Of a DNA stretch of 64,000 nucleotides, positions 3,259-10,296 are shown piece by piece (positions within the stretch are counted from its first letter, which is position 1; each line of letters starts with the position of its first letter). Under the pieces are notes generated by a model. It was given only the letters and a program-made list of their open reading frames with translations. It was not told the DNA's origin and did no database searches. The stretch is from assembly GCA_021555105.2 (NCBI GenBank), contig CP134604.1, positions 2,294,001 through 2,358,000 on the forward strand. Reading direction: 5' to 3'. The DNA comes from Thalassospiraceae bacterium LMO-JJ14. Lineage in GTDB: Bacteria; Pseudomonadota; Alphaproteobacteria; Rhodospirillales; Casp-alpha2. Both the position numbers and the translations under genes were made by a program.

Positions 3259-4482
3259 ATGGAACGTGACTTTTACAAGATCAGACGCCTGCCGCCGTAT
3301 GTCTTTGCCGAGGTAAACGACATGAAGGCGCGTGCGCGCGCCGACGGTGCCGACATTATCGATTTCGGTATGGGTAACCCGGATTTGCCGACACCGGAAC
3401 ATGTGGTCGCGAAGCTCAAGGAAACCGTCGATAACCCGAAGACGCACCGCTATTCGAATTCACGCGGTATTCCGGGTCTTCGCAAGGCGATTGCCACGTA
3501 TTACGGCCGTCGTTTCGGTGTCGACGTCGATCCCGACAAGCAGGCCATCGTCACGCTTGGTTCCAAGGAAGGGCTGGCCAACCTGTCGCAGGCGATCACC
3601 AGTCCGGGCGACGTTATCCTGGTGCCGAACCCGAGTTACCCAATCCATCAGTTCGGCTTCATCATCGCCGGCGCGGCGGCCCGCTCGATCCCGGTCAAGC
3701 CGGGGCCCGAGTTCATGGCGGCCCTGGACCGCGCCGTGCAGCACAGCGTGCCGAAGCCGACGGCGGTGGTGCTCAACTATCCGAACAATCCGACAGCCGA
3801 ACTGGCCAGCCTCGATTTCTACGAAGAAGTCGTCGATTTCTGCCGTCATCACGGTATCTGGATATTGTCCGACCTGGCTTACGCCGAAATCTATTTCGAC
3901 GGCAATCCACCGCCGTCGATCCTGCAGATACCCAAGGCATGGGATGTCGCCGTCGAATTCACATCGATGAGCAAGACCTATTCCATGCCGGGCTGGCGCA
4001 TCGGTTTTGCGGTCGGCAATGAACGCCTGATCGCGGCACTGGCACGGGTAAAGTCCTATTTGGATTATGGTGCCTTCACACCGATCCAGGTGGCTGCCGC
4101 TGCCGCGCTGAATGGTCCGCAGGATTGTGTCGACGAAGCCAGAAGCATCTACAAGGAACGCCGCGATATTCTGATCGATGGCCTGTCTGCCGCCGGCTGG
4201 AATATCCCGTCACCGCCGGCGACGATGTTTGCCTGGGCACCGATACCACCTGCGTTCAAGGACATGGGATCGATCGAGTTTTCCAAACTGTTGCTGAGCG
4301 AAGCCGAGGTCGCCGTCGCACCGGGGCTGGGCTTTGGGGAACATGGCGACGATCATGTCCGTATCGGCCTGGTCGAAAACGTCCAGCGTACACGTCAGGC
4401 GGTCCGCAACATCAAGAATTTCCTGAAAAGCCATGGTGTGAATGCCGATCCGGCCGCAAACCGTGCCAAGGAGGCATCATGA
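3259..4482 (+). CDS. alaC: PLP-dependent aminotransferase, AlaC / LL-DAP-aminotransferase-like
   Basis: A fold-type I class I/II aminotransferase of 407 residues. The PLP Schiff-base lysine is Lys239 in SMSKTYSMPGWR; NYPNNPTA (173-180) and SDLAYAEIYFDG (204-215) are the other cofactor-binding signatures. The overall pattern (N-terminal DFYKIRRLPPYVF, FGMGNPDLPTP) fits the AlaC group, which makes alanine from pyruvate; close relatives are often labelled LL-diaminopimelate aminotransferase. Its stop overlaps the hom start by 4 bp (ATGA), indicating translational coupling and a role in amino-acid biosynthesis. Exact substrate cannot be fixed from sequence. Confidence 0.85.
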   Translation: MERDFYKIRRLPPYVFAEVNDMKARARADGADIIDFGMGNPDLPTPEHVVAKLKETVDNPKTHRYSNSRGIPGLRKAIATYYGRRFGVDVDPDKQAIVTLGSKEGLANLSQAITSPGDVILVPNPSYPIHQFGFIIAGAAARSIPVKPGPEFMAALDRAVQHSVPKPTAVVLNYPNNPTAELASLDFYEEVVDFCRHHGIWILSDLAYAEIYFDGNPPPSILQIPKAWDVAVEFTSMSKTYSMPGWRIGFAVGNERLIAALARVKSYLDYGAFTPIQVAAAAALNGPQDCVDEARSIYKERRDILIDGLSAAGWNIPSPPATMFAWAPIPPAFKDMGSIEFSKLLLSEAEVAVAPGLGFGEHGDDHVRIGLVENVQRTRQAVRNIKNFLKSHGVNADPAANRAKEAS

Positions 4483-5768
4483 ACACCATCAGGATCGGCA
4501 TCGCCGGTCTCGGCACTGTCGGCGCAGGGACGGTACAGGTGATAGAAACCCATAAGAACCTGCTGTCGTTGCGGGCCGGATGCGATATTGAAATCACCGC
4601 CGTTTCCGCGCGTTCGCGCACGCAGGACCGGGGCATCGATATTTCCGGGTATCGCTGGTATGACGATCCGGTAGAAATGGCCGCTGCCGACGATATCGAT
4701 CTTGTCGTCGAACTGATCGGTGGCTCGGACGGGGTTGCCAAGGCGCTGGCCGAGAAAGCGCTTAAGGCCGGCAAGCATGTGGTGACCGCCAACAAGGCCC
4801 TGATCGCCCATCACGGCAGCGATCTTGCCGCGATTGCCGAGGCGTCCGGAGCCGCGATTTATTGTGAAGCGGCTGTCGCCGGCGGCATTCCCATACTGAA
4901 GGGTCTGCGCGAAGGGCTGGCCGCGAACGGCATTAAACGGGTTTACGGCATTCTCAACGGCACCTGTAACTACATTCTGACGGAAATGCGCGATACGGGG
5001 CGCAGCTTTGCCGACGTTCTCGAAGAGGCTCAGAAGTTGGGATACGCCGAAACCGATCCGAGCTTCGATGTCGACGGTATCGACACCGCCCACAAACTGG
5101 CGATCCTGTCGGCGCTTTCGTTCGGTACAAAAATCGATTTCGACGGCATTCACGTCGAGGGGATCCGCAATATCGCCCCCATCGATATCGATTTTGCCGC
5201 AGAACTGGGATATGGCATCAAGCTGCTGGGCATTGCATCGCTGGACGGCGATGTGGTGGAACAGCGGGTGCACCCCTGCATGGTGCCGATCGACACCCCG
5301 ATCAATCTTGTCGAAGGCTCTTTCAATGCCGTCGTTGCCGAGGGCGATTTCGTCGATACCGTGTTGCATGAAGGCCGTGGCGCCGGCGGCGGCCCCACCG
5401 CGTCCGCCGTCGTCGCCGACATCATCGATATCGCGCGCGGGCATCGTGTGCCGCTTTTCGGCATACCGGCAAGCACGCTTCGCGACATTCCGACACGCCC
5501 CATGGATCGTCATATGGGGGCGTATTACGTCCGCTTTAATGTCGTCGACAAGTCCGGCGTGTTTGCGGAAATCGCCGGCGCGCTGACGGATAACGATGTT
5601 TCCATGGAATCCGTGCTACAGCGTTCCCGCGATCCCGGGCAGATCGTTCCGGTTGTCATGACGCTGCACGAAACCGAAGAAGCGGCCATGCGCCGCGCCG
5701 TCGATCAGATCAGCCGTATCGATGCCGTGGTGGAGCCGCCGGTCGTTATTCGAATCGAAGCTCTATAA
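4479..5768 (+). CDS. hom: Homoserine dehydrogenase
   Basis: Reduces aspartate semialdehyde to homoserine, the branch point to threonine and methionine. The 429-residue monofunctional form has an N-terminal NAD(P) Rossmann motif GLGTVG (residues 10-15), the catalytic core with VTANKALIA, GILNGTCNYILTEM and DPSFDVDGIDTAHK, and a C-terminal ACT domain (YYVRFNVVDKSGVFAEIA onward) that normally carries threonine feedback inhibition. The chosen ATG overlaps the alaC stop and has GGAGG six bases upstream. Upstream in-frame codons lie inside alaC and are not used. Confidence 0.96.
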   Translation: MNTIRIGIAGLGTVGAGTVQVIETHKNLLSLRAGCDIEITAVSARSRTQDRGIDISGYRWYDDPVEMAAADDIDLVVELIGGSDGVAKALAEKALKAGKHVVTANKALIAHHGSDLAAIAEASGAAIYCEAAVAGGIPILKGLREGLAANGIKRVYGILNGTCNYILTEMRDTGRSFADVLEEAQKLGYAETDPSFDVDGIDTAHKLAILSALSFGTKIDFDGIHVEGIRNIAPIDIDFAAELGYGIKLLGIASLDGDVVEQRVHPCMVPIDTPINLVEGSFNAVVAEGDFVDTVLHEGRGAGGGPTASAVVADIIDIARGHRVPLFGIPASTLRDIPTRPMDRHMGAYYVRFNVVDKSGVFAEIAGALTDNDVSMESVLQRSRDPGQIVPVVMTLHETEEAAMRRAVDQISRIDAVVEPPVVIRIEAL

Positions 5769-5910: not shown

Positions 5911-6888
5911 ATGTCTGAACCCGCAGCAAAAGACCGTAACCTGTCGCTTGAGCTGGTCCGTGTGACCGAAGCCGCCGCCTTGGCGGCGTACCGGCACATG
6001 GGGTCGGGCGATCATATGCAAGCCGATCAGGCCGCCATTTCCTCGGCCAAGGAATTGCTGAACAGCCTGGCCATCGAAGGCACGGTGCGTGTCGGGGAAG
6101 GGCAGAAGGGTGAGGTTGAAAAGCTTTATCTGGATGAAAGTGTCGGCACCGGCCGGGGGCCAAAGGTCGATGTTGCGGTTGTCGCCCTTGAAGGGGCGAG
6201 CATCGTTGCCCGTGGCGGGCCGAACGCCATCTCCACGGTGGCCATGGCGGAGGGGGGCAGTTTTCTGAAAGTCCCCGACATCTATATGAGCAAGATCGCC
6301 GTCGGCCCCGGACTGCCGCAAGGGGTTATCGACCTTGACCGCGAACCAGAGGAAAATCTCAAGGCCCTGGCCGCCGCAAAGTCGGTACCGGTTTCGGATC
6401 TGGTCGTCTGCATGCTCGACCGCCCGCGTCACAGTCCGCTGCTCGACAAAGTCCGTGCCGCCGGTGCGCGTGTCCGTCTGATCCTGGGCGGCGACGTCTC
6501 GGCAACGATTGCAACGGCACTGGATGAAGGCGGGGTCGATATCTACATGGGCATCGGTGCGGCCCCACAAGGTGTGTTGTCGGCGGCTGCGCTGCGAGGA
6601 TTCGGCGGGCAGATGCAAGGCAGGCTCTATGCCCGCAAGGACGATGACAGGCTGCTTGCCCGCGACGCTGGGATCGAGGATTTCGACAGGATTTACACCG
6701 AGCAAGATATGGCCAGCGGTAACGTGACCTTTGCCGCGACCGGTGTGACGTATGGCGCTATTCTACGCGGTATCCATAGCCAACACGGCGGTGCGCTCAG
6801 CCATTCACTCGTTGTCCGCTCACTTACCGGCACATACCGCTTTATCGAGGCACACCATGACTTCACACGCCGGCCACCGGTCGGCTGA
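5911..6888 (+). CDS. glpX: GlpX-like protein (class II fructose-1,6-bisphosphatase family) with a degenerate active site
   Basis: Full-length GlpX fold (325 aa) recognisable throughout (RVTEAAALAAY, VGTGRGP, SKIAVGPG, GIGAAPQGV, ATGVTYG). Alignment by eye to E. coli GlpX shows several functional positions changed: Lys29 is His35, Asp61 is Gly67, Asp85 (in the D-P-I-E-G-T motif) is Val91, Thr90 is Ala96 and Glu213 is Gln219. Asp33 (Asp39), Glu57 (Glu63), Glu88 (Glu94) and Asp188 persist. Metal-dependent phosphatase activity is therefore doubtful. A separate intact class I fbp lies 2.4 kb downstream. The gene sits between hom and recJ, overlapping recJ by 32 bp. The symbol is by homology only. 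Confidence 0.88.
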   Translation: MSEPAAKDRNLSLELVRVTEAAALAAYRHMGSGDHMQADQAAISSAKELLNSLAIEGTVRVGEGQKGEVEKLYLDESVGTGRGPKVDVAVVALEGASIVARGGPNAISTVAMAEGGSFLKVPDIYMSKIAVGPGLPQGVIDLDREPEENLKALAAAKSVPVSDLVVCMLDRPRHSPLLDKVRAAGARVRLILGGDVSATIATALDEGGVDIYMGIGAAPQGVLSAAALRGFGGQMQGRLYARKDDDRLLARDAGIEDFDRIYTEQDMASGNVTFAATGVTYGAILRGIHSQHGGALSHSLVVRSLTGTYRFIEAHHDFTRRPPVG

Positions 6889-8695: not shown

Positions 8696-8722
8696 ACACT
8701 GCCGTAAAACATGGGGGATGCT

Positions 8723-9169
8723 ATGAGCGATAATACAAAATGGGATAAGCGATTTATGGAGCTTGCCGGCTTTATCGCGCAATGGTCCAAGGATCCCTCG
8801 ACCAAGGTCGGTGCGGTCATTGTCGATCCCCGCAACAAACGTATTGTCGCCACGGGATTCAACGGGTTTCCGTTCGGTGTCGAGGATACGGCAGATCGGC
8901 TCGGGGACCGCGCCATCAAGTATGAAATGGTGGTGCATGCCGAAACCAACGCCCTGATGTTTGCGGGCAACCAGGCCAACGGCTGTACGCTTTTCGTAAC
9001 ACCCTTGCCTCCGTGTGCGCGCTGTGCCGTGCTGATCATTCAATCCGGCATCAGCCGCGTTGTCTCGCCGACACCGGACACCTCGAAAGAACCCTGGAAG
9101 ACACAGTTCAAGATATCCTCGCAGATGTTTGCCGAGGCTAATGTCGACGTGGATTTATTGGACATTTAA
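8723..9169 (+). CDS. Deoxycytidylate (dCMP) deaminase-family protein
   Basis: Zinc-dependent CMP/dCMP deaminase fold, 148 residues. His72-Ala-Glu74 (HAE) and the PPCARC motif (Cys98, Cys101) are the zinc ligands and catalytic Glu. The N-terminal WSKDPSTKVGAVIVD and GFNGFP segments are those of dCMP deaminases, which provide dUMP for thymidylate synthesis. An earlier in-frame ATG exists at 8711, but GGGGGA sits 6-11 bases before the ATG at 8723, which decides the start. ComEB-type proteins belong to the same family. It follows recJ closely. Confidence 0.85.
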   Translation: MSDNTKWDKRFMELAGFIAQWSKDPSTKVGAVIVDPRNKRIVATGFNGFPFGVEDTADRLGDRAIKYEMVVHAETNALMFAGNQANGCTLFVTPLPPCARCAVLIIQSGISRVVSPTPDTSKEPWKTQFKISSQMFAEANVDVDLLDI

Positions 9170-9261: not shown

Positions 9262-10296
9262 ATGGGGGAAACCGTGTCCTACCGCGAGACACTGAAGCAC
9301 TTCATTATGCGCCAGCAGTCCCATATCACTGGGGTTACCGGCGAGTTCACACTGCTGCTGGACGACGTATCATCAGCCTGCAAGGGCGTTGCCAATCTGG
9401 TGCGTCGCGGCGAACTGTCAGGAGAACTGGGTGCTGCGGTCGGCATCAATGTACAGGACGAAAATCAGAAAAAACTCGATGTGATGGCCAACGAGCTGGC
9501 GATCAGCTGGTGCGAAAAGGGCGGTCAATTGTTTGCCATGGCATCGGAAGAAATGGTCGACGTTTATCCGGTTCCCAAGGCGCTCACGCGCGGGAAATAC
9601 CTGCTCATTTTCGATCCGCTCGACGGATCCTCGAATATCGAGGTCAACGGCCCGATGGGCACGATATTCTCGATATGCTGTATGCCGGACGAACCCGGCG
9701 ATGACCTGGCGCAGAATTTTATGCAGCCCGGCACGCAACAGCTATGTGCAGGGTATGTGCTGTTCGGCCCGGCGACGATGATGGTTCTGACGACGGGGAA
9801 CGGCGTCAACGGCTTTACCCTGAACCCAGACATCGGTGAATTCGTGCTCACCCACCCGGACATCCGCATCCCTGAAGACACACAGGAATTCGCGATTAAT
9901 GCATCCAATCAGCGTCACTGGGAGCCCCCGGTCAAGCGCTACGTGGATGAATGCCTGGCCGGGAAAACCGGCCCGCGCGAAAAGGATTTCAATATGCGCT
10001 GGGTTGCGGCGATGGTCGCGGACGTACACCGCATTATTACACGGGGCGGGATATTCATGTACCCGATCGACGAGAAAATCCGCGAGAAGGGGGGGCGTCT
10101 CCGCCTATTGTACGAAGCCAATCCGATGTCGTTTATCATCGAGCAGGCTGGCGGCTTGGCCACAACGGGGCGTGAACGTATTCTTGAAGTGCAGCCGACG
10201 GGGCTACATCAGCGCGTTCCGGTTATTATCGGTGCTAAAAACGAAGTGCAACGTCTTGTTGATTATCACGCCGAGCATGATGCCGCTAACGGCTGA
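9262..10296 (+). CDS. fbp: Class I fructose-1,6-bisphosphatase
   Basis: Hydrolyses fructose-1,6-bisphosphate in gluconeogenesis. The 344-residue protein has the class I signature DPLDGSSN at 118-125 (metal binding), the N-terminal ITGEF-like helix (TGVTGEFTLLL), MRWVAAMVADVHR and GGIFMYP for substrate binding, and RLRLLYEANPMSFIIEQAGG. All usual motifs are present, unlike the GlpX-like protein upstream. ATG at 9262 has no ribosome-binding site; GGGGGA at 9264-9269 instead suits a GTG at 9274 (V-S-Y-R-E-T), which may be the true start. Confidence 0.95.
   Translation: MGETVSYRETLKHFIMRQQSHITGVTGEFTLLLDDVSSACKGVANLVRRGELSGELGAAVGINVQDENQKKLDVMANELAISWCEKGGQLFAMASEEMVDVYPVPKALTRGKYLLIFDPLDGSSNIEVNGPMGTIFSICCMPDEPGDDLAQNFMQPGTQQLCAGYVLFGPATMMVLTTGNGVNGFTLNPDIGEFVLTHPDIRIPEDTQEFAINASNQRHWEPPVKRYVDECLAGKTGPREKDFNMRWVAAMVADVHRIITRGGIFMYPIDEKIREKGGRLRLLYEANPMSFIIEQAGGLATTGRERILEVQPTGLHQRVPVIIGAKNEVQRLVDYHAEHDAANG

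Follow-up and report, generated by a model that had tools for sequence, protein, structure and literature searches.

A degenerate GlpX retained across most Rhodospirillales as a candidate sugar-6-phosphate-binding pseudophosphatase

What keeps a class II fructose-1,6-bisphosphatase (GlpX) gene in place when its product has lost its nucleophile and metal ligands and an intact class I fbp lies close by? The question is raised by a 325-residue GlpX homologue of Thalassospiraceae bacterium LMO-JJ14, encoded in the window, i.e. the whole stretch of 64,000 nucleotides of contig CP134604.1 that was analysed here.

Locus, fold and active site of the window GlpX

The gene stands in the order aminotransferase–hom–glpX–recJ, followed by a deaminase-like gene and then by class I fbp:

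3259–4482, + strand: aminotransferase (class I/II), first gene of the block; profile match and synteny
4479–5768, + strand: hom, homoserine dehydrogenase; profile match and synteny
5911–6888, + strand: degenerate glpX (class II fructose-1,6-bisphosphatase homologue), 325 aa; PF03320, TIGR00330
6857–8695, + strand: recJ; start inferred at ATG 6857, another ATG upstream at 6752
8711–9169, + strand: dCMP/deoxycytidylate deaminase-like gene; no equivalog above cut-off
9262–10296, + strand: class I fructose-1,6-bisphosphatase (fbp); PF00316/PF18913, NF006779 at 508 bits, DPLDGSSN intact

The glpX frame opens with ATG and contains no internal stop. Its product matches PF03320 at 388.8 bits (cut-off 27) over profile positions 1–307 of 307 and TIGR00330 (glpX) at 288.6 bits, above the cut-off of 259.3; this end-to-end match places the protein in the GlpX family by descent and bears out the sequence-only reading, which had called a full-length GlpX here. 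An AF2 model (44 relatives as input; pLDDT 93, pTM 0.91) retains the GlpX fold, matching FBP-bound E. coli GlpX (3d1r) at a Foldseek TM of 0.90 and E of 3e-39. For recJ, the start at 6857 appears likelier than that at 6752, judging from the reading frame; the overlap with glpX is 32 bp with the former and 137 bp with the latter. The intact class I fbp reported 2.4 kb from glpX is present as described.

A search of the host genome (3.89 Mb, single contig) returned one GlpX, which rules out a second, canonical copy, and two class I fbp genes. The second fbp (L194, G000 C1:1118486-1119001) diverges from the window copy and has DPLDGSSN intact. The sole phosphofructokinase (PFK) of the genome (L195, G000 C1:3005269-3006186) scores 494.7 bits against PRK14071, below the cut-off of 544; an ADP-dependent PFK-A has been suggested for R. 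rubrum (PMC11609450), and by analogy the host PFK may be ADP- rather than ATP-dependent.

The active site was aligned by HMMER to GlpX of F. tularensis (7js3) and M. tuberculosis (6ayv) and by MAFFT to E. coli GlpX, in a sequence whose key-position letters match the published numbering (PMC5892879). The HMMER alignment runs without gaps across the key motifs, with DPLEGT replaced by VALEGA and GGAPEGV by GAAPQGV. Misalignment to the solved structures, which had been named as the error that could undo the substitutions, is thereby ruled out. The relevant positions (Ec, E. coli numbering) are as follows:

6109–6111, + strand: Gly67 codon, replacing Ec Asp61; alignment
6181–6198, + strand: VALEGA, residues 91–96, replacing the metal-1/nucleophile motif DPLEGT (Ec D85–T90); alignment
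6421–6429, + strand: RPR, residues 171–173, the kept 6-phosphate-binding motif (Ec K164/R166); both Arg in 91/91 degenerate sequences
6487–6495, + strand: GGD, residues 193–195, at the DGD motif that binds the sugar ring; the window genus lacks the first Asp and keeps G187 and D188
6568–6570, + strand: Gln220 codon, replacing the metal ligand Ec Glu213; alignment

The changes relative to E. coli are D61 to G67, D85 to V91, T90 to A96, D186 to G193 and E213 to Q220. Val91 thus occupies the place of the M1 ligand Asp in DPxEGT, Ala96 that of the nucleophile Thr and Gln220 that of the metal ligand Glu. D33, E57, E88, G89, D117, Y119, R166, G187 and D188 are kept, with Arg at K164, and the 6-phosphate/sugar-binding set (Y119, K/R164, R166, D188) is represented by Y125, R171, R173 and D195. 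Five substitutions had been listed from the sequence: D61G, D85V, T90A and E213Q stand (the Gln being residue 220 and not 219), whereas His35 at K29 is no loss, as canonical relatives carry Glu at that site. In GlpX the metal is held by D85 and E213 (PMC5892879); the F. tularensis T89A mutant is totally inactive and E. coli D61A essentially inactive (PMC10289334). With D85, T90, E213 and D61 gone, the earlier doubt about ordinary FBPase activity seems well placed, and this activity has very probably been lost from the window protein.

Spread, decay and selection across Rhodospirillales

The degenerate state extends far beyond one strain. All six congeners (75–90% identity) are altered at D85, D61 and E213 like the window protein and carry Ala or Ser at T90; changes common to the congeners and seen in ~100 genomes rule out a sequencing error or a single-strain pseudogene. 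Each of the 14 genera of the family is degenerate, one of them represented by a fragment only, with variation in the replacements (V/L/M at D85, A/S/K/T/P at T90, and Q at E213 save in one genus). Rhodospirillales as a whole yielded 91 non-redundant degenerate GlpX from ~21 families, lying in an aspC–hom–glpX–recJ locus where the flanks were readable. Sampled members were degenerate in families f3, f5, f6, f8, f9, f11, f12, f14–f17, f21, f22, f24–f27 and f31, mixed in f19 and f23, and canonical in f20, f29 and f30; in f4 the four key sites are canonical and D61 is lost. In the other alphaproteobacterial families, 69 of 69 sampled GlpX were canonical at all 16 checked active-site positions. The proposed comparison of related genomes therefore came out in favor of conserved substitutions, from the congeners through most families of the order. 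Degenerate members include what we take to be R. rubrum ATCC 11170, M. magneticum AMB-1, M. gryphiswaldense MSR-1 and Magnetospira QH-2.

The GlpX tree contains at least four state changes and eight pure degenerate clades, several of them with weak support. Several independent losses of the catalytic residues are likely but not proven; one early loss followed by regain through transfer is a less likely alternative. The copies L074 and L204/L205 keep Asp85 and have lost Thr90 (to P or A), and could represent early stages of degeneration. Many genomes of the order, AMB-1-like ones included, also encode a second GlpX paralogue of ~33–39% identity (L179–L187, L345–L350), with a canonical DP[VI]EGT; at Ec D33 the residue is frequently N, S or G.

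Conservation in the 91 degenerate sequences was scored at 83 sites with ≥98% conservation among 135 canonical GlpX. D85, T90 and E213, which together with E57 were the sorting sites for the degenerate call, are kept in 8%, 11% and 31%, respectively, and all fall within the six least conserved of the 83 sites (chance ~2e-4). D117, which acts as partner in the second metal site (D116 in F. tularensis), is kept in 35%, and D61 in 19% vs 96% in canonical GlpX. No sequence departs from R164, R166, G187, D188 or E88 (100% kept); retention is 99% at D33, 98% at Y119 and 80% at the sorting site E57. Four of five substrate sites are kept at ≥98% (chance 0.04), and six of seven when D33 and E88 are included (chance 0.004). 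The 6-phosphate/sugar side was not used for sorting, so its frozen state is the telling half of the contrast. Replacements on the decayed side vary by lineage (V/M/L/T/C/S/E at 85; P/K/A/S/R/I at 90), with Lys or Arg at T90 in more than 20 sequences.

Selection was estimated by pairwise NG86. Median dN/dS was 0.05 in the window genus and 0.11, 0.20 and 0.21 in three further degenerate groups; two canonical groups gave 0.06 and 0.10. Synonymous sites were saturated in many of the pairs drawn from the window genus and from the canonical groups. The anticipated low dN/dS was thus found (medians 0.05–0.21 in degenerate groups), and the reading frame is unbroken in nearly all of the ~100 degenerate genomes. 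Degenerate GlpX is under purifying selection, with a slight relaxation in some groups, and combines this with lost catalytic residues in the manner of a pseudoenzyme. That the gene is under selection had been argued from its overlap with recJ; the claim holds by dN/dS and by the invariant sugar-phosphate residues, whereas the overlap is a weak sign, because glpX is absent in what appear to be clean deletions in relatives. In nine of these, from several families (L351–L353, L355–L358, L360, L363), hom directly adjoins recJ. A role as operon spacer is weakened by this adjacency, since glpX is not needed between the two genes; where it is kept, it presumably earns its place. Its absence from several families also means that the role is dispensable, which counts against a kept function.

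Alternative enzymes and competing explanations

Degenerate genomes tend to carry another enzyme for the step between FBP and fructose 6-phosphate (F6P). A PPi-dependent PFK (PPi-PFK) or class I Fbp was found in 90 of 100 degenerate vs 10 of 30 canonical genomes (Fisher 2e-9, uncorrected for phylogeny). In many degenerate relatives a PFK gene lies beside recJ, scoring 468 bits against NF010675 (cut-off 273). The residue that is diagnostic for PPi use is Asp in this enzyme (GGND, PKTIDND), which under the published rule (PMC11609450) makes it a PFK of the PPi type. Some degenerate genomes, those of the window genus among them, have class I Fbp in place of PPi-PFK. The PPi-PFK reaction is reversible, so that the enzyme is able to replace FBPase. 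Within the family, class I fbp neighbours glpX in some genera only (g1, g13 and g3), and many relatives with degenerate GlpX have no Fbp and carry PPi-PFK near recJ instead. The neighbouring class I fbp, to which the sequence-only reading had looked for an explanation, is hence ruled out as the sole general cause.

Ten of the 100 degenerate genomes have neither PPi-PFK nor Fbp. They speak for a residual or conditional class II FBPase, a weak enzyme still serving the ordinary GlpX function, as do the intact fold and mostly intact pocket. Of these ten, however, three encode a second GlpX; six more are incomplete MAGs or contigs that break off at the PFK position, and the last, G108, is 96% complete and fits neither explanation. 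Moreover, degenerate GlpX is missing its nucleophile Thr and, at the same time, two carboxylate metal ligands, and a single change at T90 or D61 is enough to kill other GlpX (PMC10289334), making residual activity very unlikely. A protein that is still an enzyme, with changed chemistry or substrate and working through D33/E57/E88 and the 6-phosphate pocket, is more credible though still unlikely: D33, E88 and E57 are largely retained, so that the protein might bind some metal and have a changed activity, and Lys or Arg recurs at T90. Such an enzyme might act on another sugar phosphate or use a metal-light mechanism in which Lys/Arg replaces T90, variants to which we give the same low weight. 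The P1-site residues differ widely among lineages, a pattern that would not be expected of a single, newly conserved active site.

Slow decay is a further possibility, in which GlpX became useless after the PPi-PFK/Fbp takeover and lingers in the operon before deletion. The lineages in which hom stands directly beside recJ without glpX would be its endpoint, the catalytic residues are among the fastest-changing of the conserved sites, and dN/dS is somewhat raised (~0.2) in two groups. Even so, dN/dS remains far below 1, the frame persists in nearly all of ~100 genomes (14 genera in the window family alone) and the 6-phosphate pocket is invariant in 91 of 91 sequences, leaving this account improbable.

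Instead, we favor a pseudophosphatase in most Rhodospirillales, catalytically dead or in any case no longer of the class II type, that was freed by PPi-PFK or Fbp and kept for sugar-6-phosphate binding in a regulatory role, an overall reading that we hold at about even confidence. In this scheme, reversible PPi-PFK or class I Fbp would take over the FBP-to-F6P step; GlpX would then be free to lose the metal/1-phosphate residues D85, T90, E213, D61 and often D117, and would be retained because its fold, along with the part of the pocket that takes the sugar 6-phosphate, remains of use. The frozen 6-phosphate pocket suggests that degenerate GlpX has kept the ability to bind F6P, or FBP by its 6-phosphate end, and the protein might act as a metabolite-responsive regulator or as a scaffold for partner proteins. 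A retained, non-standard role, as the sequence-only reading had proposed, is well supported; the regulatory part taken by itself we consider evenly balanced. Somewhat more tentatively, GlpX may have a second, non-catalytic function in Alphaproteobacteria that outlived catalysis in several Rhodospirillales lineages; a sugar-6-phosphate sensor acting on the hom–recJ neighbourhood or on central carbon enzymes would be one example, offered with the same reserve.

Significance and relation to known systems

Everywhere annotated as a sugar-phosphate enzyme, the gene probably encodes a non-classical protein that has been widely misannotated. As a TIGR00330 score above cut-off labels the product an FBPase, metabolic models would count a probably dead enzyme, those affected being models of gluconeogenesis and the Calvin cycle in R. 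rubrum and magnetotactic bacteria. With the P1/metal half decayed, the 6-phosphate half frozen and the loss linked to PPi-PFK/Fbp, the order offers a natural experiment in which a second role of GlpX can be told apart from its catalysis. If GlpX does have a second, non-catalytic function of the kind proposed above, Rhodospirillales harbor an order-wide family of metabolite-sensing pseudo-FBPases that have been annotated as enzymes to date. In the open-access literature searched, we found no description of a GlpX pseudoenzyme clade and nothing on point for GlpX in Magnetospirillum.

The closest known counterparts are the class II GlpX of E. coli, M. tuberculosis, F. tularensis and Brucella, the last with assayed FBPase activity (PMC11005471). 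The window protein resembles them in fold (Foldseek TM 0.88–0.91), length, sequence (41–48% identity), 6-phosphate- and sugar-binding residues and E57/E88/D33, but lacks D85, T90, E213 and D61. With canonical GlpX of its own order it shares the hom–glpX–recJ locus. SuhB, an IMPase-family phosphatase involved in rRNA antitermination, belongs to the same phosphatase superfamily as GlpX and has a main role that is apparently not catalysis (PMC4807359), and may by analogy serve as precedent for a non-catalytic role. The comparison differs in that phosphatase activity has been demonstrated for SuhB. We know of no link between GlpX and the Nus factors. More generally, degenerate GlpX resembles bacterial pseudoenzymes, in which catalytic residues are lost and the fold and ligand pocket are kept under purifying selection.
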